DNA from: a virus
DNA: 41,692 bases
Direction: 5' to 3' (one strand)
IMG/VR virus record: IMGVR_UViG_3300021197_001025
Span: 1 to 41,692 of that record
In this document: positions 1,124 through 41,692 of the stretch, in pieces
Layout of the letters: every line of letters starts with the position of its first letter
Position numbering within the stretch: position 1 is the stretch's first letter
Position numbers and translations under genes: made by a program
Notes under the pieces: model-generated
Database searches by the model: none
Told to the model about the DNA's origin: nothing
Seen by the model: only the letters and a program-made list of their open reading frames with translations

Positions 1124-3511
1124 TCACGAGAAGAAGTATGTGCTCGACCGCACGCCGTCGATGTCGAGCTGTCCCCTGGCCGGCGGATCGGGCAGGTCCA
1201 CCCCTGGCCAGTGCTCTCGCCAGTACGCGGCGAGCTCGGCAATGGGGTCTCCCTCGTAGAGCTTGACGAACTGCTCCCGTGATATCTCGTTGAGCTCATC
1301 AATATCCTCAGCCAGTGACCAAAAGGAATCGTGGACTGATCCGAACGCCATGCCCCGCCGGCGTGCCTCGGCCCCCGTCATCAGGCAGTGGCTTGCATCT
1401 TGCGAGTGCGTCCAGTTCGCGGTGATCCCCTGGATCTGGCGTGCCAGGTGGACCTCGACCTCATCCATGCGGTACGCCAGCGTGATCCGCTGCATGGCGG
1501 TGCGGATCGTACACTTGCCCCACTTGCGGTACGGCTGGATCACCGGGAACCCTAGCGGCGTCACCCACCGGATCCCCTTCATCGGGTCGTGCTTGCAGAG
1601 AGCTCGGCCTGCCTCCTCGAACCAGGTGAACAGGTCGTTGGCCCGGCCGCACACCTCGCCGATACTGTCCAGGACCAGCCCGCTCAGGTCCCGGCTCATC
1701 GTGAACAGCTTGTCCCGTGGGATCTCGAGCTTCTTTAGCTTGTCCCTGACCTGGTCCCGTGCTCCGACACGGGTGCATCCGTAGACCTTGGTCATGGTTG
1801 GCTGCTTGGCTAGTAGCCGTCCGTGCTGCTCGAGCAGATCGGCGTAGCTGGGGTCCGTGTTCCGTTTGCGTGCCACGATCGCCACGTCCTGGTAGGCGTC
1901 TGCCGGCCAGTCGTCCGGGGTGCTGGGCAGCAGGTTCACCCTCGAGCCGGCGATCTCGCAGTTGGCAGCTGCGGCCAGGTGCTGGAGCCCGTTCAGAGAT
2001 CCGTCGATCTTGCATGGGTACCGCTCGCCCACCTCCGGAAAGACGATGGCCATGGCTACGGCCAGGAACTGCCACGGATCCTCCGCCTGGTGCCACCGGG
2101 TGTCACTCAAGGGATTGCGAGCGACCGACTCGATCATCTCCCGCTCCTGGTCAGCCCACTCCACCCTTTGCGTGAGCGGGACCTTGTCCACGCCCCAGGT
2201 GTTTGCCGCCTCGACCCGCAGCCACCACCTGCCTCGAGGGGTGAGGGGCTTGCCATCAGCAAACAGCAGCAGGCCTCGAGCGCAGTCATTGCTTTGGGGG
2301 TTCAGGTACAGGGGAATCGGGTAGACCCTGGACCGAAAGCAGGCCGAGTGTGGCAGGTGGAACCGGGAGTGCCTCATCTGCCCGGCAAGGGTGAGCCGCT
2401 GGATGAACTCAGCTCGAGCACCTCTTGCCTTGGCGTTTGCCGTGTGTACCTCGTGGGCCTGCCGCTTCCAGTTTTTCAGCAGGGCCGGATCGGCCTCGAT
2501 TGCTGGAGACTTGGGTGGCATTGGTCGATCGCTGGCCGCTGGCATACCCGGCCCCCCCGCCCCAGCCTCCCAAAGGTTCTTCATGACCAGATAGACCAGG
2601 TTGTTCACTGTCCACGCCTGGCCGGAGACCGCATTCAGCCCATCGTAGTAGGCAGTCATGTCCGCCTGCCCGATCGCCTCGGTTTGCTCAGGGGTTGGCT
2701 TGTTCAGCAGTGGGGTCCTGACCTTGACGTACCCGCCGGCGTGCTCGTTCGACCAGGGGTAGGGCTCGACCAGCATCGGCATGTACCTGGGACGCAGGCC
2801 CTGGCGGAAGACATGCCCATCCTCGAGGAGGTCGAACACCTCGGGCACCATGCGGATCACACCCTTCTTCTGGTTGTCCCGCCATTGCTTCTCGTGCACG
2901 AACGAGGGCGAGAACTCCTCTGTGTAGGGCTTGAAGCTGGCTGACTTGACCAGGCAGTTGAGCAGGCTTGAGCCCAGGTGCACCGCCACCTTGCGGTTCC
3001 AGATGTGATTCGTCAGGCTTCGCTTCGCCCACCAGTTGATCCGCTGCGTGTTGAGCCTCTTGAACTTGCGATCTAGGTCCCTCAGCGTGGCGTTGCTGTC
3101 CTTCTTCAGCAGGTCCATGTGGATCTCGGCGATGACTGCGGCCCCGATCGCGTACGCCACCCGTGGCAGGAGATCGCCGTTGGGCTCGGCCATGCACCTG
3201 CTCATCGTGGTGTGGATGACGAGGAACGCCAGCCGATCGGTGTCCAGGGCACATAGGATCGGGGCATACATGCCACGCCCAGGCCCAGGGTCCCCAGTGA
3301 GGCAGGCCTGCCGCTCGAGATTCACGGCGATGGCGAGGGGATCCATCCAATGGACCACCATTCGTTCGGCCGGCTTGAGGCTGGCCCCGTCTTCGCGGGC
3401 GATAGCCTCGTTGGCCAGGCGGCGGTAGCGAGCTGCCCCCCGAGCGATCGCCTCCTCCTCGAGCTTGATTTGATCGGCCAGGATTGACCCGTCAAGCAAT
3501 GCTTCCGTCAC
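1124..3511 (-). CDS. T7-like single-subunit DNA-directed RNA polymerase
   Basis: A 795-residue protein that transcribes phage genes without host subunits. The catalytic blocks of the T7 family are present in order: palm motif A with DGSLNGLQHLAAAA (Asp near residue 501), fingers motif B with KQPTMTKVYG (Lys and Tyr near 568), and motif C with VHDSFW (His-Asp near 725). T7 polymerase is 883 residues, so the N-terminal domain is shorter here. The start is a GTG at 3511 inside the end of the nuclease gene (20-base overlap). The family needs its own short promoters; I see only one weak candidate, upstream of the capsid gene. The gene lies after the recombination cassette rather than at the head of the early region as in T7. 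Confidence 0.96.
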   Translation of the reverse strand: MTEALLDGSILADQIKLEEEAIARGAARYRRLANEAIAREDGASLKPAERMVVHWMDPLAIAVNLERQACLTGDPGPGRGMYAPILCALDTDRLAFLVIHTTMSRCMAEPNGDLLPRVAYAIGAAVIAEIHMDLLKKDSNATLRDLDRKFKRLNTQRINWWAKRSLTNHIWNRKVAVHLGSSLLNCLVKSASFKPYTEEFSPSFVHEKQWRDNQKKGVIRMVPEVFDLLEDGHVFRQGLRPRYMPMLVEPYPWSNEHAGGYVKVRTPLLNKPTPEQTEAIGQADMTAYYDGLNAVSGQAWTVNNLVYLVMKNLWEAGAGGPGMPAASDRPMPPKSPAIEADPALLKNWKRQAHEVHTANAKARGARAEFIQRLTLAGQMRHSRFHLPHSACFRSRVYPIPLYLNPQSNDCARGLLLFADGKPLTPRGRWWLRVEAANTWGVDKVPLTQRVEWADQEREMIESVARNPLSDTRWHQAEDPWQFLAVAMAIVFPEVGERYPCKIDGSLNGLQHLAAAANCEIAGSRVNLLPSTPDDWPADAYQDVAIVARKRNTDPSYADLLEQHGRLLAKQPTMTKVYGCTRVGARDQVRDKLKKLEIPRDKLFTMSRDLSGLVLDSIGEVCGRANDLFTWFEEAGRALCKHDPMKGIRWVTPLGFPVIQPYRKWGKCTIRTAMQRITLAYRMDEVEVHLARQIQGITANWTHSQDASHCLMTGAEARRRGMAFGSVHDSFWSLAEDIDELNEISREQFVKLYEGDPIAELAAYWREHWPGVDLPDPPARGQLDIDGVRSSTYFFS

Positions 3512-8393: not shown

Positions 8394-9392
8394 CTAGGTT
8401 CCCATGTTGCCGACGTAGTGGTCGGTCGCTGTCTGTTCAGAGTGTCCCAACCACTGGTTCACTGCGGATGCGGGGTGTCCGGCCTTGCGCCAGAGTGTTG
8501 CCCGGTTGCGTCTCATGTCTTGCCAGGTGAAGCGTGCTCGAGGGCTGACCTTCTCGCAGGCTTCCCGCAGGACATGGTGGCCCATGTCGTACGCGGTCGG
8601 AGGCATGGTCAACCACTCCCTGTTCTCCTGCTGGGGAGGGTACCCGTACAGGAAGGGGAGGAACTCGGGCTCGACTCGCACCACCCGCATTCGATTTGTC
8701 TTGTTGCTCCAGACGTCGAGGCTCATGCGGTCCCGATCGAGGAACGGCAGCTTGGCGTCGAAGACTTCCCGCCGTCGCAGGCCCAGGTAGTAGCAGCTGG
8801 CCACGGCCGCTCGCCACTGCACGGTGGGCAGCTGCTCGAGCACGGCCTCGAAGTAGGCCGGGTCGATGTTGACTGGCTTGGGTTCCGTCTTCTTGTGCGT
8901 CGTCTTGAACTGGACAGTGACGGGGTTCTTCTCGAGCAGGTCGTCCGACATCGCAACCTTGAACAGCTGCTTGAGCTCGCGTGCGTACTTGCGAAGCGTG
9001 TTCTCCGCCTTGCCTGCTGCTCGCTGGTGCTCGAGGAACCGTGCCACCTCGGAGCTCGTCACCTTCCGGATGTCGTCGGCCATCTCCTGCTCGAGCGTCA
9101 CCATGAATCGGTGGCCCGTCTTGTGCAGTCGCTCGGGTGCGAGGTTGACCAGGTCGTGCATCGGCACCGCCGGCTCGGCTTCGGAGAGCTCGAGCTCAGC
9201 TACCCAGGCGAGCAGCTTCGCAGTGGCTGCTCGTTCGGTTGTCTTGGTCACGTTGCCCAGGCACTTGCGTCTCGCTCGGATGCGGGTGTCCGGGCGGTAC
9301 CTGCCGTACCAGTACGAGCCCTGCTGGTACAGGGTCGGAGGGGTGGTGGTGTTGTCGGCCAGTGTCGCGGCCAGTTGCATCCAGCTTGGCAT
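8394..9392 (-). CDS. int: Tyrosine-family integrase (site-specific recombinase)
   Basis: A 332-residue tyrosine recombinase that would insert and excise the phage genome. The N-terminal part is an arm/core-binding region (EVARFLEHQRAAGKAENTLR). The catalytic residues are Arg in LGLRRREVF (about 205), a beta-hairpin Lys in KTNRMRVV, box II in FTWQDMRRNRAT (about 289), His in LGHSEQ, and the nucleophile Tyr326 in DHYVG. Box II has Gln where the family usually has His or Lys. The gene has its own sigma70-type promoter (9437-9465) and the repeated CACCTACCAC leader. I could not identify an attP core nearby. Confidence 0.93.
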   Translation of the reverse strand: MPSWMQLAATLADNTTTPPTLYQQGSYWYGRYRPDTRIRARRKCLGNVTKTTERAATAKLLAWVAELELSEAEPAVPMHDLVNLAPERLHKTGHRFMVTLEQEMADDIRKVTSSEVARFLEHQRAAGKAENTLRKYARELKQLFKVAMSDDLLEKNPVTVQFKTTHKKTEPKPVNIDPAYFEAVLEQLPTVQWRAAVASCYYLGLRRREVFDAKLPFLDRDRMSLDVWSNKTNRMRVVRVEPEFLPFLYGYPPQQENREWLTMPPTAYDMGHHVLREACEKVSPRARFTWQDMRRNRATLWRKAGHPASAVNQWLGHSEQTATDHYVGNMGT

Positions 9393-9436
9393 GTCATTGC
9401 TCCCTTGCGTGGTAGGTGAGAGGCTTGGACGTGAGT

Positions 9437-9465
9437 ATCATAACGTGCTTCGGGGCAGTTGGCAA
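9437..9465 (-). promoter_or_regulatory. Sigma70-type promoter of the integrase
   Basis: Minus strand TTGCCA (9465-9460), 17 bases, TATGAT (9442-9437). The leader has CACCTACCAC (9418-9409) and GGGAG before the ATG at 9392, but no clear hairpin. A separate promoter suggests the integrase can be made independently of the upstream genes. Confidence 0.7.
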
Positions 9466-9481
9466 TCGGTGAGCTCGACGT

Positions 9482-10387
9482 TCATGCCGCTGCTCCGAAG
9501 AGCGTCAGCTGCGTGAGCTCGGGCTGGCCTCGCAGCTCGTCGGCCAGAGCTCGAGCGTTCGCCTGGTTGACTGTGCCTCCGGGGTTGACGAGGCCTTGCT
9601 CCTCGCACCACTCGTGCCAGGCGAAGGTGAAGCCGAGTCCCTTGCAGGTCGTTCGCTTGTCGGCGTGCTTGCCGGTCAGCCAGCTGCGTTCCATCTTGAA
9701 CGCTCGCTCGAGCAGGTCAGGGTGCTCGGCCCCGAGCCGGGCGATCTCCCACTTCTGGCTGGCGGGGCAGAACCAGCAAGCACTCTTCTCTGGTACTCGC
9801 AGGCCGGCGGCAGCGATCCGTCGCTTGCACTCCTCGCGGTCCCATCCCCAGTCTTGCAGTGGGTACCACCGCTCGGCCGGGCGGCCGCCGATCGTGGTCT
9901 CGTGCTTGTCAGCTCGAGCTCGTCGCTTGCGGTCGGCGGTGCTGTTGTCGTAGCCGATGACCTGAAGCGGGGGCTCGCCGGCCCAGGCCTCGTCTCGCTC
10001 TGGCCAGGCTCGAGTCAGGTAGGCCTCGATGGTGTCGGCCTTCCACTTGATGGAGCAGCCGTGCCGCTGGAACCCGAAGGCGATGCTCGGCAGAGTCTCG
10101 TTGTCGAGGCAGTTCTGCTCGAGCGTGGTGTAGGTGGTGCCTCGCCGGGTGATGTGGTCGTACCGCTTGACCCTGGTCACGGTCGGGAACCCGACGCTCT
10201 CGAGCCAGCGGTCGAAGTAGTCGAGGTACTCGTAGGTCCAGGGTGCTTCGTTGCCGACGTCGGCGAAGACGATCGCGTCAGGCCGGACGCCGAGGCGGGC
10301 GAGCTCGACCAGGATGGCGGTCGAGTCCACGCCCCCGCCGTAGTTGACGATCAGCTTTCGGCCTAAGTTTCCAGGGGTTTCGTTCAT
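9482..10387 (-). CDS. PP-loop ATPase of the PAPS-reductase/DndC-like family
   Basis: A 301-residue protein with an N-type ATP pyrophosphatase loop, NYGGGVDSTAIL (about residues 15-27), and the PAPS-reductase-like segments VFADVGNEAPWTYEYLDYF and GCSIKWK. A Cys pair in SACWFCPASQKWE (about residue 205) resembles the metal- or thiol-active segment of phage versions. The family adenylates a substrate; members act in sulfate reduction, DNA phosphorothioation (DndC) or nucleobase modification. No Dnd partner is visible, so the substrate is open. The start is the ATG at 10387 with AAGGAG 8 bases upstream. A sigma70-type promoter (10431-10459) and a hairpin at the predicted start point precede it. 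Confidence 0.8.
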   Translation of the reverse strand: MNETPGNLGRKLIVNYGGGVDSTAILVELARLGVRPDAIVFADVGNEAPWTYEYLDYFDRWLESVGFPTVTRVKRYDHITRRGTTYTTLEQNCLDNETLPSIAFGFQRHGCSIKWKADTIEAYLTRAWPERDEAWAGEPPLQVIGYDNSTADRKRRARADKHETTIGGRPAERWYPLQDWGWDREECKRRIAAAGLRVPEKSACWFCPASQKWEIARLGAEHPDLLERAFKMERSWLTGKHADKRTTCKGLGFTFAWHEWCEEQGLVNPGGTVNQANARALADELRGQPELTQLTLFGAAA

Positions 10388-10430
10388 GTCGTTGCTCCTT
10401 GGCAGGCGAGCGGGCCGGTCCCGCACTTGG

Positions 10431-10459
10431 ATCCTACGGTAACCGGCGCAGTATGTCAA
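10431..10459 (-). promoter_or_regulatory. Sigma70-type promoter of the PP-loop gene
   Basis: Minus strand TTGACA (10459-10454), 17 bases, TAGGAT (10436-10431). A GCGGG/CCCGC hairpin (10410-10424) begins at the predicted start point. A variant leader CGCCTGCCAA (10408-10399) and GGAG follow. Confidence 0.75.
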
Positions 10460-10465
10460 CCCCTA

Positions 10466-10651
10466 TCAGCTGCGGTCCTCGAGGGCCTCGTCGATCGCAG
10501 TGAGCACGGCCATGTAGATCGGCACGGGTCGAGGGTCGTCGGTCTCGACCTGGATCATGGCGGCCAGCACTCGAGCCTTGTCTACCACCTCGAGGTGGCG
10601 TGGCGTCTGGATCGCTTCGTACTTGCGGGTGGGTGGGGTGTTCGCGGGCAT
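10466..10651 (-). CDS. Hypothetical early protein, 61 residues
   Basis: A 61-residue protein beginning MPANTPPTRKYEAIQ, with a central helix VVDKARVLAAMIQVE and a second helix IYMAVLTAIDEALED. It is acidic with no membrane segment or metal motif. The ATG at 10651 has AGGAG a few bases upstream (CAGGAGATTCAACATG). A copy of the CACCTACCAC leader element and a 14-bp hairpin (10710-10747) lie upstream, but no sigma70 promoter is visible between it and the previous gene. I do not recognise the family. Confidence 0.65.
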   Translation of the reverse strand: MPANTPPTRKYEAIQTPRHLEVVDKARVLAAMIQVETDDPRPVPIYMAVLTAIDEALEDRS

Positions 10652-10709
10652 GTTGAATCTCCTGGGGTGAGGTGGTACTGTCTGGCCTGCTCCCGTGGTA
10701 GGTGAGCCC

Positions 10710-10747
10710 GATGGGCGGTGCGATGTTACGACGTCGCACCGCCCATC
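10710..10747 (-). promoter_or_regulatory. Perfect 14-bp hairpin across a stop codon, upstream of a leader copy
   Basis: gatgggcggtgcga (10710-10723) and tcgcaccgcccatc (10734-10747) are exact reverse complements with a 10-base loop. The stop of the DUF3846-like gene lies in the loop. No T-run follows, so it is more likely a processing or stability element than a classic terminator. CACCTACCAC (10704-10695) follows. Confidence 0.7.
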
Positions 10748-11166
10748 ATCTTCTGCACTCGCAGCCACTTGTTGAACTGGGCGATGCCGTCGTTGATGAG
10801 CTTGTCGTTGAACAGCACGTTCTGCGTGAGCTTCTCGACCAGGTCATCGGGCACGGCCACGGCATCGCCGGTCTTGGGGTCGGCACGGTACAGGACCATG
10901 TCGCCGGCGAGCGGGGCCGGGTAGTTAGCCAGGGCCATGGCTCGCTGGTTCACTCGGACGGCGGGGCGGATCCCGGTCAGGGCCATGTCGTCATGCCATA
11001 GGTTGAGTCCGCCCACCCCCTCGACCTCGGCGATCGAGAGGTTGGACGTTTCGTCGCAGCCGACGGCGGCGTTCAGGTCTTGGAACCCGCCGACGTACAG
11101 CTTGCGGCACATCTGGATGGGGTCGGCCGGGATGACGAGGGCGAGGGTCGGTGTCGGGTCAGGCAT
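10726..11166 (-). CDS. DUF3846-like hypothetical protein
   Basis: A 146-residue protein whose start, LALVIPADPIQMCRKLYVGGFQDLNAAVG, has the look of the DUF3846 family found in phages and actinobacterial elements. The middle has a short HDDMALTGIRPAVRVNQRAM segment and the end is helical. No catalytic motif is evident. It overlaps the upstream gene by 8 bases. The coding end and stop codon form the right arm of a perfect 14-bp hairpin (10710-10747), so the 3' end of the message may be processed or terminated there. Function unknown. Confidence 0.6.
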   Translation of the reverse strand: MPDPTPTLALVIPADPIQMCRKLYVGGFQDLNAAVGCDETSNLSIAEVEGVGGLNLWHDDMALTGIRPAVRVNQRAMALANYPAPLAGDMVLYRADPKTGDAVAVPDDLVEKLTQNVLFNDKLINDGIAQFNKWLRVQKMMGGATS

Positions 11167-11836
11167 GGGTCGGTTCCTCCTGTGTTGCGAGCTTGAAGTT
11201 CTTGCGGGCGGCGGTGACGTCGTTGGCTTGGCGGCAGGCGTAGCCGTGGCCCTCCTCGTGCGGGGTCCAGTCCACCTGCCCGACCGGCACTTGCAGGTGC
11301 CACTGTGCCTCGATGGGGCCGCTCAGCTCCTCGCACACCCGGCGGCAGGTGGTGTTCTTGCACTCGCCTCGGCTCTCTCGTGTCTCGCCTCGGCTTCGCC
11401 AGGTGTGCCGCTCGGGCACCTCGCCGCACACTGCACACGGTTCGTCGAGGCCGGCAGTCCGCTGGGCGTGGACGTACATCTTGCCGCCGCACACCTTCTC
11501 CCAGTCAGGGCCGGGGCTCGGGTTGTTCTGGGCTCGGTCGCTGTGTGTCTCCTCGACCTGTGCCATCCGTGTCTCGCCGGTCTTGGTGTTGAGCCAGCGG
11601 TCGCAGCTGTAGCCGTAGTCGGTCATGCTGTCGAACCGGGCGAACTGGTAGTCGCTGATCTCCTCATCAACCAGGCACTGGGCAGGGCCGCCGGTGTAGC
11701 TGACGTCCACGCTGCTGCCGCCGGCGAACCTGCTGCTGCGGACGCTGAACTTCTGGCCGGGGAAGCGGGCCTTCAGTCGCTTGCGGACGAGGGCCGCGAC
11801 TTCCTTGGGTTCGATCCATCTGTAGTCTCGAGGCAT
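11159..11836 (-). CDS. LPD29-like domain protein with Cys-rich C-terminus
   Basis: A 225-residue protein. Its first 85 residues (VAALVRKRLKARFPGQKFSV, then RSSRFAGGSSVDVSYTGGP, then FDSMTDYGYSCDRWLN) match the pattern of large polyvalent protein-associated domain 29, a module first described in proteins that phages and conjugative elements send into cells. The rest is rich in Cys and His (CGG, CAVCG, CKNTTCRRVC, a GHGYAC), suggesting one or two zinc sites. The ATG at 11836 follows a sigma70 promoter, a strong hairpin and the CACCTACCAC-GGAG leader. It may be an early host-interaction protein; this is inference from the domain's company elsewhere. Confidence 0.62.
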   Translation of the reverse strand: MPRDYRWIEPKEVAALVRKRLKARFPGQKFSVRSSRFAGGSSVDVSYTGGPAQCLVDEEISDYQFARFDSMTDYGYSCDRWLNTKTGETRMAQVEETHSDRAQNNPSPGPDWEKVCGGKMYVHAQRTAGLDEPCAVCGEVPERHTWRSRGETRESRGECKNTTCRRVCEELSGPIEAQWHLQVPVGQVDWTPHEEGHGYACRQANDVTAARKNFKLATQEEPTHA

Positions 11837-11885
11837 GGTGTGTTCTCCGTGGTAGGTGGTGGGTGCTCCCCGATGGAGCACCCCT

Positions 11886-11914
11886 ATGTTAGCGGGTAGG
11901 TCAGGCCGTGTCAA
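11886..11914 (-). promoter_or_regulatory. Sigma70-type promoter of the LPD29-like gene
   Basis: Minus strand TTGACA (11914-11909), 17 bases, TAACAT (11891-11886). Of 29 bases from -35 to -10, 25 match the 13.2 kb promoter. A 9-bp perfect hairpin (11861-11883) covers the start point, then CACCTACCAC (11858-11849) and GGAG. Confidence 0.85.
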
Positions 11915-12137
11915 CCATCCCGGCCAGGTGTTCTCGCACCTTGATCTCATGCTGCAACATGAGGTGCAGCAGCTGGTGCGTCTGCTTCTCCTTGCCGTCG
12001 GGCATGGTGAAGGCCTTGTCGTGGATGGTCCGCCGGAAGGCGGCGAGGTCGGCGTTGCCGATCGTCTGGATCTTGGCCTCGAGCGTGGCTCTCAGCTTGA
12101 GGTTCTCGTCGTTCAGTCCGGTCAGTTGTCGGGCCAT
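11901..12137 (-). CDS. Hypothetical early protein, 78 residues, helical
   Basis: A 78-residue protein that looks almost entirely helical: LNDENLKLRATLEAKIQTI, then DLAAFRRTIHDKAF, then HQLLHLMLQHEIKVREHL. The first helix has a heptad-like pattern, so it could pair as a coiled coil. The ATG at 12137 has AGGAG 7 bases upstream. The last codons and stop overlap the -35 box of the next promoter (11909-11914). No family recognised. Confidence 0.65.
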   Translation of the reverse strand: MARQLTGLNDENLKLRATLEAKIQTIGNADLAAFRRTIHDKAFTMPDGKEKQTHQLLHLMLQHEIKVREHLAGMVDTA

Positions 12138-12255
12138 CGGTCGTCTCCTGGTTGAGGTACTCGAGCAGTCGTTCGTACTCGAGGCGGGGTAGGTGAGTGA
12201 AGCAGAGTGCGAGCCATGCTTCGGTCGGTGTCGGTCCTCGGCAGTGCTGTCCCAT
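11947..12255 (-). CDS. Hypothetical early protein with a long overlap
   Basis: The ATG at 12255 lies 2 bases after the previous stop. The first 40 or so residues (TEAWLALCFTHLPRLEY, then ERLLEYLNQE) look like genuine helical protein. From about residue 45 the frame runs inside the 12137 gene and becomes Arg/Pro/His-rich, which is typical of an out-of-frame reading. Either the gene really ends with this tail (102 residues) or a short protein lost its stop. Function unknown. Confidence 0.45.
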   Translation of the reverse strand: MGQHCRGPTPTEAWLALCFTHLPRLEYERLLEYLNQETTDGPTTDRTERREPQAESHARGQDPDDRQRRPRRLPADHPRQGLHHARRQGEADAPAAAPHVAA

Positions 12256-12257
12256 GG

Positions 12258-12659
12258 TCAATATCCGTCGTCGAGGCCGGGCTCTTGGGCGATCGCCGGC
12301 TTGGTGAACCAGCTGACTCGACCTCGTCTCAGCTGGATTTCGTTCGCTTCAGTGCCTGGTTGGTGCGGCCCGCACTCGATCTTCACTGGCCCGTCGAAGG
12401 TGCAGTGCTCGAGCACCCGTGCGACGAGTCGCTTCTGGTCCGCCGGGTCGGCGGGCACCGTGCCGTGGCGGTCCGCTTGAGGCGTGGCCGTGGGCGGGTA
12501 GTCGTTGAGCCAGTCCCGCCTGAGTTGCCACTCCCCGCGTCCGCCGACTCCGATGCCGGCAGTCTTCAGGGCGAGTGGTTGGCCGGCGTTGGCGGCGAGC
12601 CAAGCGACCAGTGATGCCTCACGTTCGAGGCCCTCTTGGATGCTGCGTGCTACGTTCAT
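12258..12659 (-). CDS. Hypothetical early protein, 133 residues
   Basis: A 133-residue protein starting MNVARSIQEGLEREASLVAW. A Gly-rich turn follows at about residue 35, then a helical KRLVARVLEHCTFDGPV segment and a beta-like KIECGPHQPG stretch, with an ending VSWFTKPAIAQEPGLDDGY. No known motif. The ATG at 12659 has GGAG 8 bases upstream and lies 2 bases after the previous stop, so it belongs to the run of short genes read from the 13.2 kb promoter. Confidence 0.6.
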   Translation of the reverse strand: MNVARSIQEGLEREASLVAWLAANAGQPLALKTAGIGVGGRGEWQLRRDWLNDYPPTATPQADRHGTVPADPADQKRLVARVLEHCTFDGPVKIECGPHQPGTEANEIQLRRGRVSWFTKPAIAQEPGLDDGY

Positions 12660-12661
12660 GG

Positions 12662-12895
12662 TCAGTGCTCCGTGTTGTCTTCGGGTACGTTCCATCGCAC
12701 TCGCTTGACCAGGCGTGCGTGCCACTTGACCGTGGCGAGTGCGTGTCTCGTGTTGCGTACATGCTCGCCGTCCTGCCGCTTGCAGCTGAGCCAGTAGGCC
12801 GCAGCCGTAGCCATGGCCTGATCGGGCCGGAGCCCGAGGGCTCGAGCGTGTGACTGCTGCACGGTGGCGGCGTCGAGTGCGGTCAGCTTGGTCAT
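12662..12895 (-). CDS. Hypothetical early protein, 77 residues, basic
   Basis: A 77-residue protein with a helical, Ala-rich first half (TVQQSHARALGLRPDQAMATAAA) and a basic second half (RHALATVKWHARLVKRVRW). The net positive charge would suit nucleic-acid binding, but no helix-turn-helix is convincing. The ATG at 12895 makes an ATGA overlap with the upstream gene and has GGAGG 7 bases upstream. Function unknown. Confidence 0.62.
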   Translation of the reverse strand: MTKLTALDAATVQQSHARALGLRPDQAMATAAAYWLSCKRQDGEHVRNTRHALATVKWHARLVKRVRWNVPEDNTEH

Positions 12896-13131
12896 CGGCG
12901 TGCCTCCATTCGCTCGGTCCATCGCAGCTGGGCGAGGAAGAATCGGTACTCTCGGTCGAGCTCGAAGTCTTGGGTCTCCGGGACGCGGGCGGCAGCTCGA
13001 GCGGCGGCTCGCACGAACGCTCGCTGGGCTAGGTCTACCGGGCATGCGTCTTTAGGGCAGAGCAGGTAGCACATGCCGGCTCGCTCGCGTGCGTTCATCT
13101 GGGCGAAGACTTGCTGGAGTGTCTCGGGCAT
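12892..13131 (-). CDS. Hypothetical early protein, 79 residues
   Basis: A 79-residue protein, MPETLQQVFAQMNARERAG then MCYLLCPKDACP, an Arg/Ala helix (AQRAFVRAAARAAARV) and an aromatic end (REYRFFLAQLRW). The three Cys in MCYLLCPKDAC could hold a metal but there is no fourth ligand in view. It is the first gene after the 13.2 kb promoter and carries the hairpin and CACCTACCAC-GGAG leader. Function unknown. Confidence 0.62.
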   Translation of the reverse strand: MPETLQQVFAQMNARERAGMCYLLCPKDACPVDLAQRAFVRAAARAAARVPETQDFELDREYRFFLAQLRWTERMEARR

Positions 13132-13181
13132 CGGTGTTCTCCGTGGTAGGTGATGGTCGGGGCCTGTCCCTGACCGCGTGC

Positions 13182-13210
13182 ATGTTAGCAGGTATGTCAT
13201 CCCGTGTCAA
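13182..13210 (-). promoter_or_regulatory. Sigma70-type promoter, extended -10
   Basis: Minus strand TTGACA (13210-13205), 17 bases, TAACAT (13187-13182) with TGC before it. The -35 overlaps the stop codon of the upstream gene. A hairpin (13155-13175) begins at the predicted start point, then CACCTACCAC (13152-13143) and GGAG. TGACA is repeated 10 bases apart across the -35. Confidence 0.85.
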
Positions 13211-13677
13211 CCCCACAGTGTGCGGGCTGGGGTGTCTCGCTCGGGTCGGGTGTAGTACCTCGTCGGGCTGGCTTCGGCCGGCGTCAGGCCTTGGGCTTCG
13301 ACCTCGGCCAGTCGCTCGAAGGTCCGGCAGTCGCAGGCCATGAGCCAGGTCAGGCCGGGCTCGATCCCTGCCTCGTGGTCCTCGGCGTAGACGTCAGCCT
13401 TGAAGCCGGCCAGCTGGCTCGGGCAGAGGTCTCGAGCCTCGTAGCCCAGCCGCAGCCAGTGCTCGAGCTTCGGACCCCGCACCCGCTCGCAGGTCCAGAA
13501 GCCTGCGTCTTCAGTGGGTGCCACGTCGTACACCATCTGGTGCTCGTGGTGCTTGCCGTGGAAGACGAAGACCTGCCAGCTGCGGGCGGTGTAGCTCAGG
13601 GTCAGGTGCCAACCCTTCGGAGCTTGGAACCACTGGCGGCAGGCGTCGCGGATCTCGGGTAGGTGCGGCCCGGTCAT
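13207..13677 (-). CDS. Hypothetical early protein, 156 residues
   Basis: A 156-residue protein (MTGPHLPEIRDACRQWFQ then WHLTLSYTARSWQVFVFHG) with alternating strands, a WTCERVRGPKLEHWLRLGYEA helix region and a Cys pair in LMACDCRTFERLAEVE. It reads like a compact alpha/beta domain I cannot assign. The ATG at 13677 is in an ATGA overlap with the previous gene and has GAGGAGG 7 bases upstream. A longer frame to 13890 is out-of-frame reading of the 13674-14030 gene. The stop codon overlaps the -35 box of the next promoter. Confidence 0.62.
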   Translation of the reverse strand: MTGPHLPEIRDACRQWFQAPKGWHLTLSYTARSWQVFVFHGKHHEHQMVYDVAPTEDAGFWTCERVRGPKLEHWLRLGYEARDLCPSQLAGFKADVYAEDHEAGIEPGLTWLMACDCRTFERLAEVEAQGLTPAEASPTRYYTRPERDTPARTLWG

Positions 13678-14030
13678 CGCAGGCCCTCCTCTCGGGCGTG
13701 GTCGGTCGCCTCCTCGAAGGTGTCGAAGGGGCCGTGGAGTAGCTCGCAGTCGGTCGGCTGGGCGTTCGGCCGGCAGTAGTAGCCGGTGGAGTCCTTCCAG
13801 ACTTCGTAGGTGCTCGAGGGGCTGGGCGTGTGGTAGTGCTTCGGCTGTTCGTCGAGCACCGTGCATCCGGGGTGGTTGTCGGCTGCCCATGCTCGAGCGT
13901 CGGCTATCGTCGCGTGGGCCGGGCCGGTCGTGTAGGTGACTCCGAACTCCTCCTGCATCTCGAGGACCGAGGCGGTCTGGGGCTGGAGGTAGAAGGCTCG
14001 GCCGTCGTTGGTGGGAAGGAAGGTGGTCAT
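13674..14030 (-). CDS. First early protein, hypothetical, 118 residues
   Basis: A 118-residue protein with two similar alpha/beta halves: VTYTTGPAHATIADARAWAADNHPG and CELLHGPFDTFEEATDHAREEG. Each has a strand followed by a (T/F)(I/F)xxA(R/T)xxA helix, a pattern seen in small SPOR-like or DUF repeats, but I cannot name the family. It is the first gene read from the strongest-looking early promoter (14085-14112), so it would be among the first proteins made after entry. The ATG at 14030 follows an ACGGAG Shine-Dalgarno. Confidence 0.62.
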   Translation of the reverse strand: MTTFLPTNDGRAFYLQPQTASVLEMQEEFGVTYTTGPAHATIADARAWAADNHPGCTVLDEQPKHYHTPSPSSTYEVWKDSTGYYCRPNAQPTDCELLHGPFDTFEEATDHAREEGLR

Positions 14031-14084
14031 GGTCAGGCTCCGTAGAGGGTGGTAGGTGCCGGCCGTCGTTGGCCGTGCACGGTC

Positions 14085-14112
14085 ATCATACCTATCATCG
14101 AACGTATGTCAA
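14085..14112 (-). promoter_or_regulatory. Sigma70-type promoter of the first early gene
   Basis: Minus strand TTGACA (14112-14107), 16 bases, TATGAT (14090-14085). The predicted start is near 14078. A 5-bp hairpin (14060-14075) begins just after it, followed by CACCTACCAC (14058-14049) and ACGGAG before the ATG at 14030. Confidence 0.85.
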
Positions 14113-14266
14113 GCGGTAGGATAGACAATCTCTGAAGATTCCGAAAAAAGCAGGTAGGCCAGGTCAAACCGAAAAGGGCAGGTGGTCCGGTGCATCGGTG
14201 CAGACATGGACGAGCTCGAGCGTTGACGCGGCCGGCCGACGTCCGATAAGCCCATGCCGGTCCTCT

Positions 14267-14498: not shown

Positions 14499-15032
14499 TT
14501 ATCGAAGGGGTCGGGGGTGGGACCTGTCGATCTCCAGCTTCGGAGTGGCGAAGTCCACGGTCAGGAGGGCTCGAGTGATCTTGGGGTGGGTGTTCCAGCA
14601 CTCATGCTCATGGGATGGGTCGAACATGGCGACACCTCCCTCGACGTGGGGGCAGACGATGTCCTTGGCCCTCATGCCGCAGCCTTCGGGCACCACCAGG
14701 CCCAGGTCGTACCGGAGGACGCCGGGGATGTCCTCCTCGTGCGGGAGGATCTGGGACTCAGGCCCCAGGATGGAGATGGCGGCGTTGACCAGGCACGGAA
14801 CGTCATGCAGGAACCTGGCGAGGCATGGGACCAGCTCGCAGTGGGAGTGGATCCAGTTGCCCTGGTAGCAAAGTCCGAAGACATCCCAGCCACCCTCATA
14901 GCAAACGTCTCTCCCCTTCGGGGACTCCATGAACAGCTCGTCCCTCAGAGCCTCGTATTCGCCGCGTACGGCCTTCCAGTTGTCTGCGAGGGTCTCGGCC
15001 CATTCCGCACCGTTCGGGTCGTAGAACGTCAC
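14499..15032 (-). CDS. Aspartyl/asparaginyl beta-hydroxylase-like 2OG-Fe(II) oxygenase
   Basis: A 177-residue protein resembling the catalytic domain of aspartyl/asparaginyl beta-hydroxylases. Iron-ligand His residues fit QILPHEED (about residue 100) and PSHEHECWN (about 150). Between them are the family's LRYDLGLVVPEGCGMR and GGVAMFD segments, and an Arg after the second His (KITRALLTVDF) suits 2-oxoglutarate binding. The usual MHLGL/YHLGL His is Asp here. Such enzymes hydroxylate a side chain or a lipid; the target is unknown. The start is GTG at 15032 in a GTGA overlap. It is the last late gene, after large terminase. Confidence 0.75.
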   Translation of the reverse strand: MTFYDPNGAEWAETLADNWKAVRGEYEALRDELFMESPKGRDVCYEGGWDVFGLCYQGNWIHSHCELVPCLARFLHDVPCLVNAAISILGPESQILPHEEDIPGVLRYDLGLVVPEGCGMRAKDIVCPHVEGGVAMFDPSHEHECWNTHPKITRALLTVDFATPKLEIDRSHPRPLR

Positions 15033-15568
15033 AGGAGGCGGCCTCGCTGCCCTTCGTATCGAAGCTGGTAGTGCCTCGATCCGGCGAAGGCTCGAGAGTC
15101 TGATGCCAGGTTGCCGTTGGTGGCGTAGATAAACTCGACCGATGGGGCGATCGTGCCTGTCTGGCCGTTGTAGTTCACGAAGGCCTCGTCCCAGGCCGCG
15201 TCCCGCAGGGCCTCGGTGCCGTACTCCCATGCGACTCGAAACAGCTTGGCGTTTCCGCTCGAGACGGTGGTGGCCTGGATGCCGGTGCCGATCTTGTACC
15301 CGTTCGGGAAGATCATCCGAGCGTTCCAGTTGGGGTAGAAGAGCAGGAAGTCGCCGGCAGAGTTCGGATCGACCAGCTGGGTCGGAATGCTCAGCCTCAT
15401 CTCGATCTTCAGCGTCCCGTCTTTTCGGATCGGGGTCGCCCCAGAGATGGCCAGGTTGGCCGAAAGGAACGTGCTTTCGGAGACCAGCGTGTTGTTGGTA
15501 TCGACTTGGGTGGCACTGGTCAGCGAGAGACCGTCAGCCACGAACGTGTAGTTGGTTGCTTGAGGCAT
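15029..15568 (-). CDS. Putative virion or fiber-type protein
   Basis: A 179-residue, beta-rich, Asn/Thr/Ser-rich protein (ATNYTFVADGLSLTSATQVDT, LFYPNWNARMIFPNG, SVEFIYATNG). It looks like a small structural or head/tail-decorating protein, but I cannot match a family. The ATG overlaps the terminase stop in TGATG and has AAGGAGG upstream. It ends in a GTGA overlap with the hydroxylase-like gene, so the three are coupled. Confidence 0.55.
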   Translation of the reverse strand: MPQATNYTFVADGLSLTSATQVDTNNTLVSESTFLSANLAISGATPIRKDGTLKIEMRLSIPTQLVDPNSAGDFLLFYPNWNARMIFPNGYKIGTGIQATTVSSGNAKLFRVAWEYGTEALRDAAWDEAFVNYNGQTGTIAPSVEFIYATNGNLASDSRAFAGSRHYQLRYEGQRGRLL

Positions 15569-17274
15569 CAATCCCTCCTTCGGATCCAGCTGGTGGTTTG
15601 TCGGTTGATCTTGAATGCCGCATAGTGCTCGTCGAGAGCGTCCTCGAGCCACTGGGCTCGGCGGTTGTTGGCGGCGACTTCGGGGTCCATGTTCATGAGC
15701 TCGAGCCATTGGGCGCAGCAGCTGCCCAGGGCGTCGATCTCGTCATCATGCTTCAGGCAGTTCCGTTCCCTGGTCAGCATCGTCCACTGACGCTGTAGGT
15801 CCTGGTTGTGCGCGACGTCAGGGTGGAACACCAGGCGGTGACTGTTGGCCAGGGGCTCGAGGACCGAGATGATCCTGACCTCCTTCTGGCCATGGACTCG
15901 GACGTTCTCGAGGCCGGAGGCCCAGCCGTCGGGGTAGTCAGGCTGCTCGTCGGGCTCGAGAAACATGCCCTGAAGCACGGGCTCGAGCAGTGCGGTGAAC
16001 ATACTCGAGCCGAAGTTGTCTTCGACGTGAATGCGATCGACCCGATGTTCCCGGCAGGCTAGGCAGATCCCTTCGAGGGTCTCCCGCTCGAACCCGCCCT
16101 GGAAAGCCTTGACGGCTTTGACGTACAGGAATCCGTTGAGGTGGGCGACGATTGCCACGGCCGTCTTGTCGGCACCCTTGCCGGACGGGTCGATGAAGGC
16201 GTAGGTCCCGGTGTATTCGACCCACTGATCGCTGAACATGATCGGCGAGTAGAAGCCGTCGCCGGCGAACCCCAGGCTCGGGATCTCCTCGTACCTGGTC
16301 GATCCGCCTCGATCGTTCTTCATTCCCCAGGCGATGGTGAGGGGGGCTCGGTCTCGCTGAACCGGGAAGACGACCAGGTCCTGGAGCTTGAGCGGATACT
16401 TGAGCTCGTCGCCGAGCGTCTGGAGCATCGCGTACTGCATCCCGTAGGTCGATCGACCCTCGGATGCCTGGCGGTCGATGAGCTCCGTGAGGTCGAACCG
16501 TGTGGGCCACACGCTGTCGTCGGGCTGAACCTCGCCTCGATCGAGAGCCTCCTGGAGCTCGGGTGCCAGGTCGGGCGGGGCCGCCCAGTCGCCGCCTGGG
16601 TACTGAGCTGGCCAGGAGCGGAAGGCGTACCCGGCCTCCTCGGCCAGCTTGGTGTAGAGCGACTCGACGTGGTGATTCGTGCCCAGGAAGACGACGTCGC
16701 CACCAGGGATCAAGATGTTGTCGAACTCCTTGACCTCTTCTCGGAGGCGGGTTCGCATGTCTAGAGTCAGGGTCGTCTGCGTCGTCTCGACGTCGTCCGA
16801 GATGATTAGGGTCGCTCGAGACCCGGTGATCTGGCCCGTGATCGACGCCGCCGTGAATGAAGGCGTCCGATCGGACGGGGCCTGCCGGATGTCGAAGTTG
16901 AGGGCGGAATCCCGTTGCCCTGCGATCCGATCGGGCACCATGTGCTGAAGGAACGGGACCTGGCCGATCCACTTCCTCGCCATGTATAGCGAGTCCTTCG
17001 AGTGCTTCTCTGACTTGGAGACCAGGAGGATCCGTTGATTCTGGTCGCGGAACAATCGCCAGATGCAGTACGCGAGCGTCACCCAGGTTTTGGCAGCACC
17101 ACGGAACGCCCGCACGCCTCGACGCTTGGGGCCATGCTGAAGCCACTGGGCGATCTGCCGCTGGTGCGGTGCCGGCGTCGGGAGGTTCACTGCGAGCCAG
17201 AGCTGCTCGAGGAAGTAGTCGAAGTCGTTGGTGAGTCGCTCGAGGTATTCCTCGAGCTGGACTTGGTCACTCAC
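15568..17274 (-). CDS. terL: Terminase large subunit (T7 gp19-like)
   Basis: A 568-residue packaging motor. The ATPase has a Walker A-like RAFRGAAKT (about residue 55-63), ILLVSKSEKHS, and Walker B LIISDDVET (about 156). The C-terminal nuclease domain starts with FIDPSGKGADKTAVAIV (about 356) and includes a second acidic site in IHVEDNFGSSMF. It pumps DNA into the head and cuts it, working with the small terminase and portal. The start is GTG at 17274, overlapping the previous stop (GTGA). Length and motif spacing fit T7-like terminases. Confidence 0.95.
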   Translation of the reverse strand: MSDQVQLEEYLERLTNDFDYFLEQLWLAVNLPTPAPHQRQIAQWLQHGPKRRGVRAFRGAAKTWVTLAYCIWRLFRDQNQRILLVSKSEKHSKDSLYMARKWIGQVPFLQHMVPDRIAGQRDSALNFDIRQAPSDRTPSFTAASITGQITGSRATLIISDDVETTQTTLTLDMRTRLREEVKEFDNILIPGGDVVFLGTNHHVESLYTKLAEEAGYAFRSWPAQYPGGDWAAPPDLAPELQEALDRGEVQPDDSVWPTRFDLTELIDRQASEGRSTYGMQYAMLQTLGDELKYPLKLQDLVVFPVQRDRAPLTIAWGMKNDRGGSTRYEEIPSLGFAGDGFYSPIMFSDQWVEYTGTYAFIDPSGKGADKTAVAIVAHLNGFLYVKAVKAFQGGFERETLEGICLACREHRVDRIHVEDNFGSSMFTALLEPVLQGMFLEPDEQPDYPDGWASGLENVRVHGQKEVRIISVLEPLANSHRLVFHPDVAHNQDLQRQWTMLTRERNCLKHDDEIDALGSCCAQWLELMNMDPEVAANNRRAQWLEDALDEHYAAFKINRQTTSWIRRRD

Positions 17275-18301: not shown

Positions 18302-18584
18302 GTGATCCCTCCGTGATGTCATCCATAGGTGGCAGCTGCGGCTGGATGTTCACCCCCCTGGACTGCATCTCGCGGATCAGGGATCCGATCGGGTTCTCAT
18401 CGGTGGCGACGGCGGAAACGCCGGCGTCCTTCAACCGTTGCCGGACCACGTTCAGATCGGCCGCCGAAGCCTGCATTCGGACCGGACCGTCTTGGGTCAT
18501 TATCTCTCGACCGTTGACCAGGACATCCAGAAGAGCCTTGTCGAGCTCGTCGCTGAGCTTCTCGATGGGGGAAGGTGACTTCAT
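18270..18584 (-). CDS. terS: Terminase small subunit (T7 gp18-like), putative
   Basis: A 104-residue protein. It has a helical start (IEKLSDELDKALLDVLVNG) and the block RMQASAADLNVVRQRLKDAG, which is the recurring core of small terminase subunits in T7-like phages (ASAxDLNVIRQxLKDN). It would recognise concatemer DNA and hand it to the large subunit. The ATG at 18584 is in an ATGA overlap with the giant internal virion gene. Confidence 0.75.
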   Translation of the reverse strand: MKSPSPIEKLSDELDKALLDVLVNGREIMTQDGPVRMQASAADLNVVRQRLKDAGVSAVATDENPIGSLIREMQSRGVNIQPQLPPMDDITEGSHEGSPGRVAG

Positions 18585-21500
18585 CGCTTGAATGCCTCCG
18601 GGACCACGGGGAGGTCCGTTGCGCGATACAGCATTCGCAGGATCGCCTGATTCTGGAATGGCAGCATGGTTGCTGCCTTGTAATACGTCTGGTCATCGAC
18701 CTCGCCTGGGCCGGCGACGTCGTACAGGATGTCGCCCATCCGGTCGGCCGTGCTTGCGGTCGGCCCCAAGCCCTGGATGACTGCTCGAGCTCCAGCGTCT
18801 CCGCTGTAGAAGCCTTGGCTGGCACCACCGCCCACCCTGTTGTCGAACAGCACGCCAGGGCTCACTGGAACGCCCAGGGCGTCCGTCAGGCCCCAGGCCC
18901 GAGAGATCGGCCCGCTGAGGCCGGAGTAGACGAAAGCCTTGTACGCCATCCCGGCGGGGTTGGTCTTCCATTCCTCGGCAGACTCGCTCAGCTTCCGCCG
19001 GCCGGACAGATGGTTGGTGATTGCGTCAGTCGTCGCACCCAGGGCCATGTAGGTGGTCAGGTACCAGAGCTGGTACTTCGCCGGCATCTGGCTCATGGGC
19101 AGCATCCGCTGGTGCTGGAACGCCATCATGAACGTCTGGAACTGATTGAGCAGCTTGCCCCAGGTGTTGAAGTTGACCAGGGGGCGGTCGAACGCCCCAG
19201 GAGTCACGACCAGGTGGCGGTTCACTTCATCATCGACTCGAGCTTGAATTGTCTCGAGCAGGTCTCGGGTCGCAACGTCGTTGATGTCCCACTCAGCGAA
19301 ACCGTTGACGAACAGCTTCTTCTCGTTCCTCATGTAGTCGTCGAAGCTCATGACTTCGCGGATCGCTCGGCCGTCTGCCAGCGTCCCCTTTGAGTACGTC
19401 TGGGAATGGAACAGCTCGGCTCGCTCGACGTTCAGCCCTAGCTGGTTGACCTTGGCGAGCTGGTACTTGCTCATGCGGACCTTCTTGAGGGCATCGGCCT
19501 CGCTCATCCCTTCGTCCATGAGCTTCTTGGCTCGGATCATCTTCTTGCTGAGCGTGGTCATCCGCTCGAACGTCAACATGCCGGCGAGCCGCTTGTTGGT
19601 GTTCGTGATCCAGTTCATGCCGCTGAGGTGGCTAGACACTTCGGAAAGCCTGGTAGAGCCGTGCTCGATCATTGCACTCACGACCCTGGCCTTGCCCGCG
19701 CCGTATCCCAGGTCGCGGACATCGAAGTCCATGTCGCTCCGTGCCCTGGTCGTGGTCATGTGGTCGGTCCACAACTGGAACAGCTCGAGATCCTTCCTCG
19801 AGAAGTTCTTCATTAGTCCGATCAGCCTGGGGAACTGGGCAAGCGATCGCGGGTTCTGGAGCAGGTACAGCGTGATCGGAGCCAGGTCGTTGAGCTGAGC
19901 CCAGCCCACGGATCCCAGCTTGTTCATGAAGTTGTATCGCTGCACGGTGCGGCCGAAGAAGCTCAAGAAGCTGTCCGGGTCGCTGATGCCTCGGTTGGGC
20001 ATCTGCCCGGTCATCGCCTGCATTGGAGTGACCAGGTCGCGGCGAGCCTTGGAGTGAGCCGAGGCGATCTTGTTGGCGAGCTCCATGTCGCCGGCTCGTT
20101 CAGCCAGGGCACGCATTCGGTTGAACTGCGTGTCCAGGACATCTGCCAGGTCGTCGGCGGTCTCAACCTTGCGACCGTCACTGGTGCGGTAGTTGTCCCA
20201 GGTCTCGCTGTTCTGCTGGATCGCCCGCCGGACTCCGATGTGGCCGGCCACGTTGTAGTCGTAGCGCATGACCTGGTTCTGGAGCCCGTCATCCAGGAAA
20301 TCCTGGACGGTCGCGTAGTTGATGCCGAGCGATCGCTCTCGCAGCGGGCGAGGGACCGCCTGCATGTGAGCAGCAACCCCGTGTCCTCGCACGGGGTCAC
20401 TGATTGCGTCTCGGATGCTGGTCGCTTGTTCGCGGTACCGCTGCCTCAGTCGGTCGAGGTATTGGGCTCGGAGTCTCTCGTCAAGACTTCCGACAGGGAT
20501 CTTCCGCTGAGGTCGAGGAGATCCTCCAGCATCTCCGTCGGGTCGCGGAGCGAGTGGACTGCCGCTGCGCGGTCGAGGGGCATCCCCTGCTCCATCAGCT
20601 CGATCAGCAGGCGAAACGTCCTCGCCTCGAACTGGTTTCGAGCCAGCGTCTGGAGCCTCTGCACCTCGTCGAGGGGCAGCTGGTAGATCGGGAGTGGTGA
20701 CATCGGGTGATCCCTTCGGTGTTACTTTAGCAGCCATGCTACGGGTTGTCAACCCGTTCTTGAAGACCATGTCAAGAGCGTTGTCATCGAGCCAGGAATC
20801 CGGATCGACGACGTCGAACTTGGCCTTGTTGGTCCTGGGTACGTCAGCGGTGTAGAGCCCCATGCTCTTGAGCTTGACTCGCCGGCCCCCACCAAGGTCC
20901 CAATATCCGCCGTTCTCGTTGACCTCACGCCAGGTTCGAGTCGGGTTGTCTGCGTAGTCGTTGGCAACCATGCCATTCGGAACGTGCCGGCCAGTGTGAA
21001 TCGAGCGAGCACTGAGGCGTTCCATCACCTTCCTGGGCGGCATGTCCACCGTGACGACATGGACGTCGTAGCCCGCGTCTGCGAACTTAGAGATCATCTT
21101 CGAGAGCGTTGCCTGGCTGTCGCCGACCTTCGGAATGATGGCGTTAGACCCGCCTTCGATGACCTGGTCAATCATGCGGTCCAGGATCATCTTGGATTCG
21201 TCGTGCGTTCCGAAAGCCCCCTGATCCTCGAACTCGGGCAGCTTCCGCTTGATGAAGTCGCTGTCCACGATGTAAGCACCCTGGGACGCCTGGATCGAAT
21301 CGGCCATGGTGCTCTTGCCGGCCGCAGCTGGCCCCGTCAGGAACACCACCTGCCGCTCAGCTCGTGGCGTTTCAGCGCGGCCTCCGCCCACCCCCGGCTT
21401 GATGGCATTCTCGTCTCCTTCGACTCGAAGCCCCATCATGTCTTCGACGATCTGGTTGTGAAGCTCCTGCCTTTCAGGAGTGAATGCCCCACTTTCGTCC

Positions 21501-39056: not shown

Positions 39057-39976
39057 CAACCGACTCCTTCAAGGAGGTGCTGCGGGGTGCGGGCGAGCTT
39101 GGCTTTAGTCTCGTCCGACATGAACCCGTTGTTCCTGGCAGCTTCAAACGCCATCAGGACCTCACGGGTCGTGGTGAATCCCGCCGGCTCGGGCGGTGCC
39201 ACTTCGGTGGCGTCCATCAATGGCCGCGACTGGATCGTTCCAGCTGCCGAGGACTGATCGAACATCATTTCCTTCAGGGCTGACTGCCAGGTGCGGGGAT
39301 CCGCGAGTCTCTGGTTCAGCTGCTCCTGCTGGTGGGGGGTGTAGTTGTTTGCTGCCCACTGATACAGGTTCTGGAGCTGATCTTCCCCTCCGACCAGGGT
39401 CTTGGCCTGGGTCAGCATCTGCTGCTGGGTGTTGTTCTCGGCCTGCACCATCGAATACTGGCCAGCCACGAATGTATCAACGACCTGGCGGGAGTACCCG
39501 ATCTGCTTCAGCGATTCGTACTGCTCATCGGTCAGCTTGCCCTGGTTTTCCCACTGCTCGGCAAGCATCTTGCCGTCCAGGCTCGCGGCCTCGAGCACGC
39601 CGGCGATATCCCGATCGGCGAACGGTCCGTGCTTCTCGATTTGGAAGGCGGTTTCTTCTTCGGAGGTGCGGGCGTCCTGCTGGCTCAGCTCGGTGATCTT
39701 CCGCTGGGCTTCCTGGTAGGCCTTCTCGAGATCCTCGACGGTCTCGTACTTGCCGGCGAGCTTGGCCTGCTCGGCCTTTGTGGCCTCCTCAGCAGCTGCC
39801 TGCCGTGCCTCGTCCTGGTCGGGGAAGCTGGCTTCTGCCGTGCCGTCGCCGATGACCTGCACGTTTTCGGGTGCGGTAGCACCCTCTGGCACCTCGAGCC
39901 CGTCGATCGGGCTGTTGTGCTGCTCAGGCTTGATCGGTGCGGTGACTGGTGGTAGCCCCGTGGCTTCTTCACTCAT
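39056..39976 (-). CDS. Scaffolding (capsid assembly) protein
   Basis: A 306-residue, acidic, helix-rich protein with no membrane segment or enzyme motif. It has a disordered N-terminus, then an Ala/Glu/Gln-rich helical middle (AAEEATKAEQAKLAGKYETV, DLEKAYQEAQRKITELSQQ) and a basic C-terminal segment that in this family contacts the capsid. Position between portal and capsid and composition match T7 gp9-like scaffolds. It overlaps the portal end by 8 bases. Confidence 0.85.
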   Translation of the reverse strand: MSEEATGLPPVTAPIKPEQHNSPIDGLEVPEGATAPENVQVIGDGTAEASFPDQDEARQAAAEEATKAEQAKLAGKYETVEDLEKAYQEAQRKITELSQQDARTSEEETAFQIEKHGPFADRDIAGVLEAASLDGKMLAEQWENQGKLTDEQYESLKQIGYSRQVVDTFVAGQYSMVQAENNTQQQMLTQAKTLVGGEDQLQNLYQWAANNYTPHQQEQLNQRLADPRTWQSALKEMMFDQSSAAGTIQSRPLMDATEVAPPEPAGFTTTREVLMAFEAARNNGFMSDETKAKLARTPQHLLEGVG

Positions 39977-41561: not shown

Positions 41562-41692
41562 CAACCGCCTCCGCTGTAAGGGCCAGCACCAGAGGCCGGC
41601 TTCGGGATCACCAGCGACCTGGCGGAACCCTTCCGACGCTTGCCAGTCTTGGCGGATGCGTCAGCGGATCCCTCCTCGAAGGGGTTGTCCTC
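41561..41692 (-). CDS. 3' end of a small Ser/Gly/Lys-rich protein entering from the right edge
   Basis: The last 43 residues of a gene that begins beyond the window: EDNPFEEGSADASAKTGKRR, then KGSARSLVIPKPASGAGPYS. It has no start within the window. The stop overlaps the portal ATG (TGATG). It is probably the end of the gene beginning at 37 if the map is circular. Confidence 0.7.
   Translation of the reverse strand, partial: EDNPFEEGSADASAKTGKRRKGSARSLVIPKPASGAGPYSGGG

Follow-up and report, generated by a model that had tools for sequence, protein, structure and literature searches.

The stretch analysed here, hereafter the window, comprises the 41,692 nucleotides (nt) of IMG/VR record IMGVR_UViG_3300021197_001025, a temperate-looking podovirus in which all recognised genes, including those of a T7-type terminase, a single-subunit RNA polymerase and a tyrosine integrase, lie on the minus strand (Table 1). 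The genes from the terminase to the integrase occupy the location of the early genes in T7-type phages, and on account of this position and of their sigma70-like promoters they are predicted to be early. The 5' leaders of several of them carry a short oriented element with the core CTACCAC, usually just before the GGAG of the Shine-Dalgarno sequence, which an earlier note, made from the window alone, had described as one part of a repeated promoter-hairpin-motif-ribosome-binding-site cassette.

There are five exact copies of CACCTACCAC in the window, as that note reported, all on the minus (coding) strand and all in leaders, with none elsewhere; 0.07 copies are expected from dinucleotide shuffles, none of 100 of which reached five. 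The sixth copy, which it had called a variant, is a decayed one (CGCCTGCCAA) that is intact in the relative L011 (CGCCTACCAC). CTACCAC-N0-12-GGAG-N4-10-ATG occurs four times (0.02 expected), the order motif, GGAG, ATG is found on the coding strand only, and an unbiased ranking of the 7-mers that precede GGAG..ATG on this strand puts CTACCAC and the 7-mers overlapping it at the top. The recurring unit is CTACCACGGAG, and its core is taken to be CTACCAC because the first CAC of the copy at 14058 belongs to a hairpin. A closely following Shine-Dalgarno sequence, also claimed earlier, is found at most copies but not at 10704, where the motif is followed by GGGAG but the start codon has its adjacent Shine-Dalgarno sequence about 40 nt farther downstream. 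The Rfam covariance models gave no match in the window at gathering score. A promoter for the phage single-subunit RNA polymerase was considered and rejected: all five copies fall within 9409-14058 and none lies ahead of the structural genes.

Table 1. Genes, motif copies, promoters and hairpins of the window, with the motif leaders of the relative L322 at L322 positions.
Feature	Positions	Strand	Remarks
Single-subunit RNA polymerase gene	1124-3511	minus	
Tyrosine integrase gene	8394-9392	minus	
CACCTACCAC copy 5	9409-9418	minus	leader of integrase gene; no hairpin
Sigma70-like promoter TTGCCA-17-TATGAT	9437-9465	minus	
PAPS-reductase-like gene	9482-10387	minus	
Decayed sixth copy CGCCTGCCAA	10399-10408	minus	leader of PAPS-reductase-like gene
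Weak leader hairpin	10410-10424	minus	z -0.7
Sigma70-like promoter TTGACA-17-TAGGAT	10431-10459	minus	
Small early gene	10434-10652	minus	function unassigned
CACCTACCAC copy 4	10695-10704	minus	downstream of strong stop-codon hairpin; no promoter
Stop-codon hairpin (10704 site)	10710-10747	minus	z -5.7
Early gene with LPD29 domain	11159-11836	minus	
CACCTACCAC copy 3	11849-11858	minus	GGAG immediately downstream; leader of LPD29-domain gene
Leader hairpin	11861-11883	minus	z -4.4
Sigma70-like promoter TTGACA-17-TAACAT	11886-11914	minus	
Early gene	12892-13131	minus	function unassigned
CACCTACCAC copy 2	13143-13152	minus	GGAG immediately downstream; leader of gene 12892-13131
Leader hairpin	13155-13175	minus	z -2.0
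Sigma70-like promoter TTGACA-17-TAACAT	13182-13210	minus	
Early gene	13674-14030	minus	function unassigned
CACCTACCAC copy 1	14049-14058 (core CTACCAC 14049-14055)	minus	GGAG 7 nt downstream; leader of gene 13674-14030
Leader hairpin	14056-14080	minus	z -3.3; includes first CAC of motif
Sigma70-like promoter TTGACA-16-TATGAT	14085-14112	minus	
Terminase gene, T7-type	15568-17274	minus	
Head-tail connector gene	39969-41564	minus	
L322 motif leader	14192		downstream of promoter
L322 motif leader	16429		orthologous stop-codon hairpin site; stem sequence unrelated
L322 motif leader	17709		immediately past integrase stop

Seven sigma70-like promoters are present in the region, where 1.0 is expected. 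A promoter accompanies five of the six sites (not 10704) and a hairpin five of the six (not 9418). In the four leaders that have both, the stem begins 3-7 nt past the -10 box, which places the hairpin at or just beside the predicted transcript start, as the earlier note had it; the five hairpins differ in sequence, again as described. Its contention that there is more here than promoters alone is also borne out: the motif is conserved, and promoters do not account for it. What remains of the proposed cassette is the conserved motif plus Shine-Dalgarno sequence, since one leader lacks the promoter and another the hairpin, and across phages the cassette is not a conserved unit: 14 of 53 motif sites in eight phage records lie within 30 nt of the upstream stop codon, and many leaders are without a hairpin. 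That a hairpin always goes with the motif was likewise rejected, the upstream hairpins of control leaders being equally strong (p 0.64). The promoter and the hairpin are thus features separable from the conserved CTACCAC element.

Conservation of the motif in relatives, which the earlier note had asked for, was found. L011 has 88-91% DNA identity to the window and retains every motif site, reading CGCCTACCACGGAG at the place of CGCCTGCCAAGGAG. Between the two, the stem at 13152 differs by a single two-sided change (T-A to C-G), a mismatch that is mended and an outer pair that is lost, the stem at 10704 differs by a single two-sided change, and those at 11858 and 10408 are identical; these changes lend modest support to a structure in the RNA. 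At least three leaders of L322, whose terminase is 68% identical, contain CCTACCAC or CTACCAC. Two genes adjacent in L322 are separated in the window, in moron-like fashion, by the PAPS-reductase-like gene, which has a promoter and leader of its own.

Viral contigs were scanned for CACCTACCACGGAG, and two further scans and counts over whole records followed. The first scan is not persuasive by number alone (104 stretches, against at least 120 for the reversed motif plus GGAG); the evidence lies in leader position and multiplicity. Among the distinct stretches examined, 27 of 70 stand at the proper distance before ATG, whereas with the reversed motif plus GGAG only 7 of 77 do (Fisher p 2.6e-5). 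Leaders of the CTACCACGGAG type occur in at least 18 viral records with up to 16 copies per record: CTACCAC-GGAG-ATG is counted four times in the window, five in the record of L011 and three in that of L322, which form the podovirus set, and elsewhere 16 times in G039, nine in G015, seven in G018, six each in G021, G036 and G201 (two of the latter overlapping), five each in G037, G175 and G182, four each in G042, G186 and G203, and three each in G011, G038 and G179. The reversed pattern is absent from each of the 18 counted records. CTACCAC ranks first or joint first among all 7-mers before sites resembling ribosome-binding sites in the window and in seven further phage records, and is found at only one of 794 such sites in 80 unrelated viral loci. 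A matched control was needed because the multi-copy records had been found through the motif itself: at least two leader copies were present in 7 of 80 loci from the motif scan and in 0 of 80 from the control scan.

The lineages concerned are fewer than 18, since several records are interrelated (G021, G036 and G042; G015 and G018). A large terminase of the Terminase_6C family is encoded in 17 of the 22 records searched, not in the window, and an all-against-all comparison of the proteins of eight records yields two sets, one of the window, L011 and L322, the other of G015, G021, G036, G039 and G042. INPHARED gave no match for the early region (megablast) or for the other motif phages (blastn), and the motif is missing from Paracoccus phage Pkon1, the named phage to which the portal protein of G021 is best related. 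The single match of a 32-nt leader query, to Gordonia phage RiverRaider, lies in a coding sequence and was discarded. Ahead of motif genes there are also promoter-proximal palindromes, GTAACC..GGTTAC in L376 (record G021) and TGACAAA..TTTGTCA in L276 (record G015), which differ from phage to phage and look like repressor operators.

The matches of G021 correspond, coordinate for coordinate, to contig C10 of the genome of Pseudaminobacter salicylatoxidans. In this 4.8-Mb genome all six loose matches lie inside the prophage and none outside it, and 114 other alphaproteobacterial genomes contain no strict match; the motif is therefore, at least there, not a habit of host ribosome-binding sites. 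An extended ribosome-binding site of the host was accordingly rejected for the sampled genomes. The strict pattern has 34 scattered matches in the cellular genome collection, with no lineage prominent, and at least two of these are within phage-like loci also present in IMG/VR. A rare cellular case is that of two Pseudonocardia genomes (L290 and L302), in which an identical CACCTACCACGGAG leader precedes what is apparently the same gene.

The element that phages have in common is CTACCAC together with the Shine-Dalgarno sequence, as a rule with GGAG and then the start codon immediately following. Its presence before genes of unrelated phages and its near-absence before those of the sampled bacterial chromosomes suggest a translation signal specific to phages. 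Abutment on GGAG, together with use at genes that leave no room for a promoter, points to translation. In silico, the motif is predicted to be unpaired (0.77 and 0.72, as against 0.49 for other leaders). Exposure of the Shine-Dalgarno sequence is not raised (0.31 and 0.24, versus 0.36 and 0.38 in the phages' other leaders), so that predicted accessibility gives no support to the idea that the motif frees it; the motif would then not be merely an insulator, and recognition is the simpler reading. Pairing with the 3' end of 16S rRNA cannot explain the motif, because nothing in that end corresponds to the bases ahead of GGAG. A search for a complement in 16S rRNA gave pairing no support either: the one full 16S locus examined has no GTGGTAG, only matches of seven in eight that allow G-U pairs.

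The explanation that we favour, and place just on the probable side, is that CTACCAC beside the Shine-Dalgarno sequence is a phage start-associated sequence acting at the RNA level on translation initiation, in the window that of early non-structural genes. A trans-acting factor would read the unpaired CUACCAC and favour initiation on phage messages; the candidates are a widely conserved component of the host, a small RNA, or a phage factor that the comparisons missed. The promoters of the window would put the motif genes at the head of short early transcripts. The hairpin, located at the predicted 5' end, is a second and separable feature and probably protects the message. Several observations weigh against this explanation, besides the unchanged exposure of the Shine-Dalgarno sequence: the motif at 10704 is some 45-55 nt away from the start codon; the distant relatives L008 and L010 have no leader motif; and an oriented DNA site near gene starts would give a similar pattern. 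Moreover, blastp of the eight records at E 1e-5 linked no protein of the podovirus set to one of the other records, so a common phage-encoded reader was not found, and 338 family profiles gave no convincing link either, their best matches being weak and inconsistent. The two sets thus have the motif in common but no detectable reader. It is possible, and offered only tentatively, that CUACCAC-GGAG is a phage-wide translation address, a tag on which unrelated tailed phages converged, or which they exchanged, and which tells phage from host messages for ribosomes or a conserved bacterial factor.

The main rival is a DNA operator or stoperator of the kind known from L5-type mycobacteriophages: a phage regulator would bind the motif as asymmetric double-stranded DNA, behind promoters and in the gaps between genes, and would keep transcription from starting or continuing. 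This would yield a similar pattern. The motif is indeed asymmetric, oriented with transcription, present in multiple copies and located in the short intergenic gaps of early genes, in elements that bear an integrase or are prophages, and the L5 stoperators share these traits (PMC9283540). However, the latter are 13-bp sites bound by the repressor as DNA and are not described as joined to a Shine-Dalgarno sequence (PMC9283540), whereas most copies here touch GGAG exactly, in unrelated phages whose promoter-proximal palindromes differ and, in G021 and G015, make better operator candidates. A common 7-bp site would require unrelated repressors of equal specificity, and we regard such an operator as unlikely.

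Rather doubtful, too, is a translational enhancer or standby stretch, rich in C/A and lacking G, that involves no dedicated phage factor and is perhaps also the target of a small RNA. The motif is free of G, predicted to be unpaired and upstream of the Shine-Dalgarno sequence, as are the enterobacterial ACA motifs, unpaired C/A-rich elements just upstream of Shine-Dalgarno sequences that raise translation and serve as GcvB targets (PMC3879156). Those, however, are loosely placed trinucleotide repeats of host genes with no fixed 7-mer (PMC3879156); the exact identity of a 7-mer across lineages exceeds what an effect of composition needs, the Shine-Dalgarno sequence is not freed, and the sampled host genomes do not use the motif. 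Very improbable is the spread of promoter-hairpin-leader cassettes recombined as units with the motif as a passenger, in the manner of the shuffling PeSL cassettes of T4-type myoviruses, which join an early promoter and a stem-loop between genes as far as a citing description tells (PMC4503421): the position of the PAPS-reductase-like gene, with promoter, hairpin and motif of its own between two genes adjacent in L322, would suit it, but hairpin and promoter sequences differ by site and are absent at many motif sites, and a gene gained or lost between the window and L011 (window 12258-12659) has no motif.

The closest known systems are the start-associated sequences (SAS) and extended SAS (ESAS) of cluster K mycobacteriophages, known since 2011 without a mechanism (PMC3203893, PMC11373665, PMC12699233), together with the cluster EF SAS of Microbacterium phages and a cluster EC leader motif. 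To judge by anatomy, the element resembles the cluster K SAS, being short, asymmetric, multi-copy, in one orientation and just before the starts of non-structural genes (a division incompletely annotated in phages outside the window family), conserved beyond the Shine-Dalgarno sequence, and practically absent from the host genome, here the one prophage-bearing host and the 114 alphaproteobacteria. The sequences differ, GGGATAGGAGCCC in cluster K not lying within two mismatches of CTACCACGGAG, as do position and hosts. The cluster K SAS includes the Shine-Dalgarno sequence and is conserved on both flanks, whereas here the additional conservation is upstream. About half of the cluster K SAS have an upstream element holding a SigA-like promoter and a 17-bp inverted repeat, whose repeats follow a common consensus and have no support for pairing as RNA; the window hairpins, at five of six sites, differ in sequence, and two have one compensatory change each. 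Because neither the sequence nor a shared inverted repeat is common to both, the element falls outside the cluster K family, and unlike the cluster K SAS it occurs in phages with no detectable shared proteins. The Microbacterium EF SAS/ESAS and the 18-bp EC leader motif are likewise oriented repeats at or upstream of the ribosome-binding sites of selected phage genes, but they differ in sequence (GGGAAAGGACCCC; TAGaCTATaGGTgTaAgC) and are each reported from one actinobacterial phage cluster (PMC7302621). A full-text search of the open-licence literature for CTACCACGGAG returned no prior description, the matching papers being, by title, on other subjects.

What is new, then, is a second tag, unlike the cluster K SAS, that is common to phages without a detectable shared protein and unused by the sampled chromosomes, which narrows the search for its reader to a conserved bacterial component or an unrecognised phage factor. 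The question of the reader can be put to the test, since a cultured Pseudaminobacter strain carries a prophage with the motif.

Further conserved or repeated sequence lies ahead of the early genes. A short block ATGTCTGCACCGATG(C/T)ACC.. that precedes the first of them (minus strand, window 14170-14212; L011 287-330, L322 12515, L008 3336, L010 9531) is retained even in relatives without the leader motif; it may encode a leader peptide (MSAPM..) or serve as an attachment site or operator. Repeats of TTATCGGAC occupy the non-coding control region of the window at 14249, 14373 and 14392 (minus strand), and relatives repeat it or its reverse complement GTCCGATAA (L010 9429, 9452 and 9490; L008 3225). 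An aspartyl/asparaginyl beta-hydroxylase gene (14499-15230, minus strand) adjoins the terminase gene, and an open frame of 2215 residues (18581-25228, minus strand), unusually large for a 42-kb podovirus record, has weak minor-head, ATPase and kinase-like matches.

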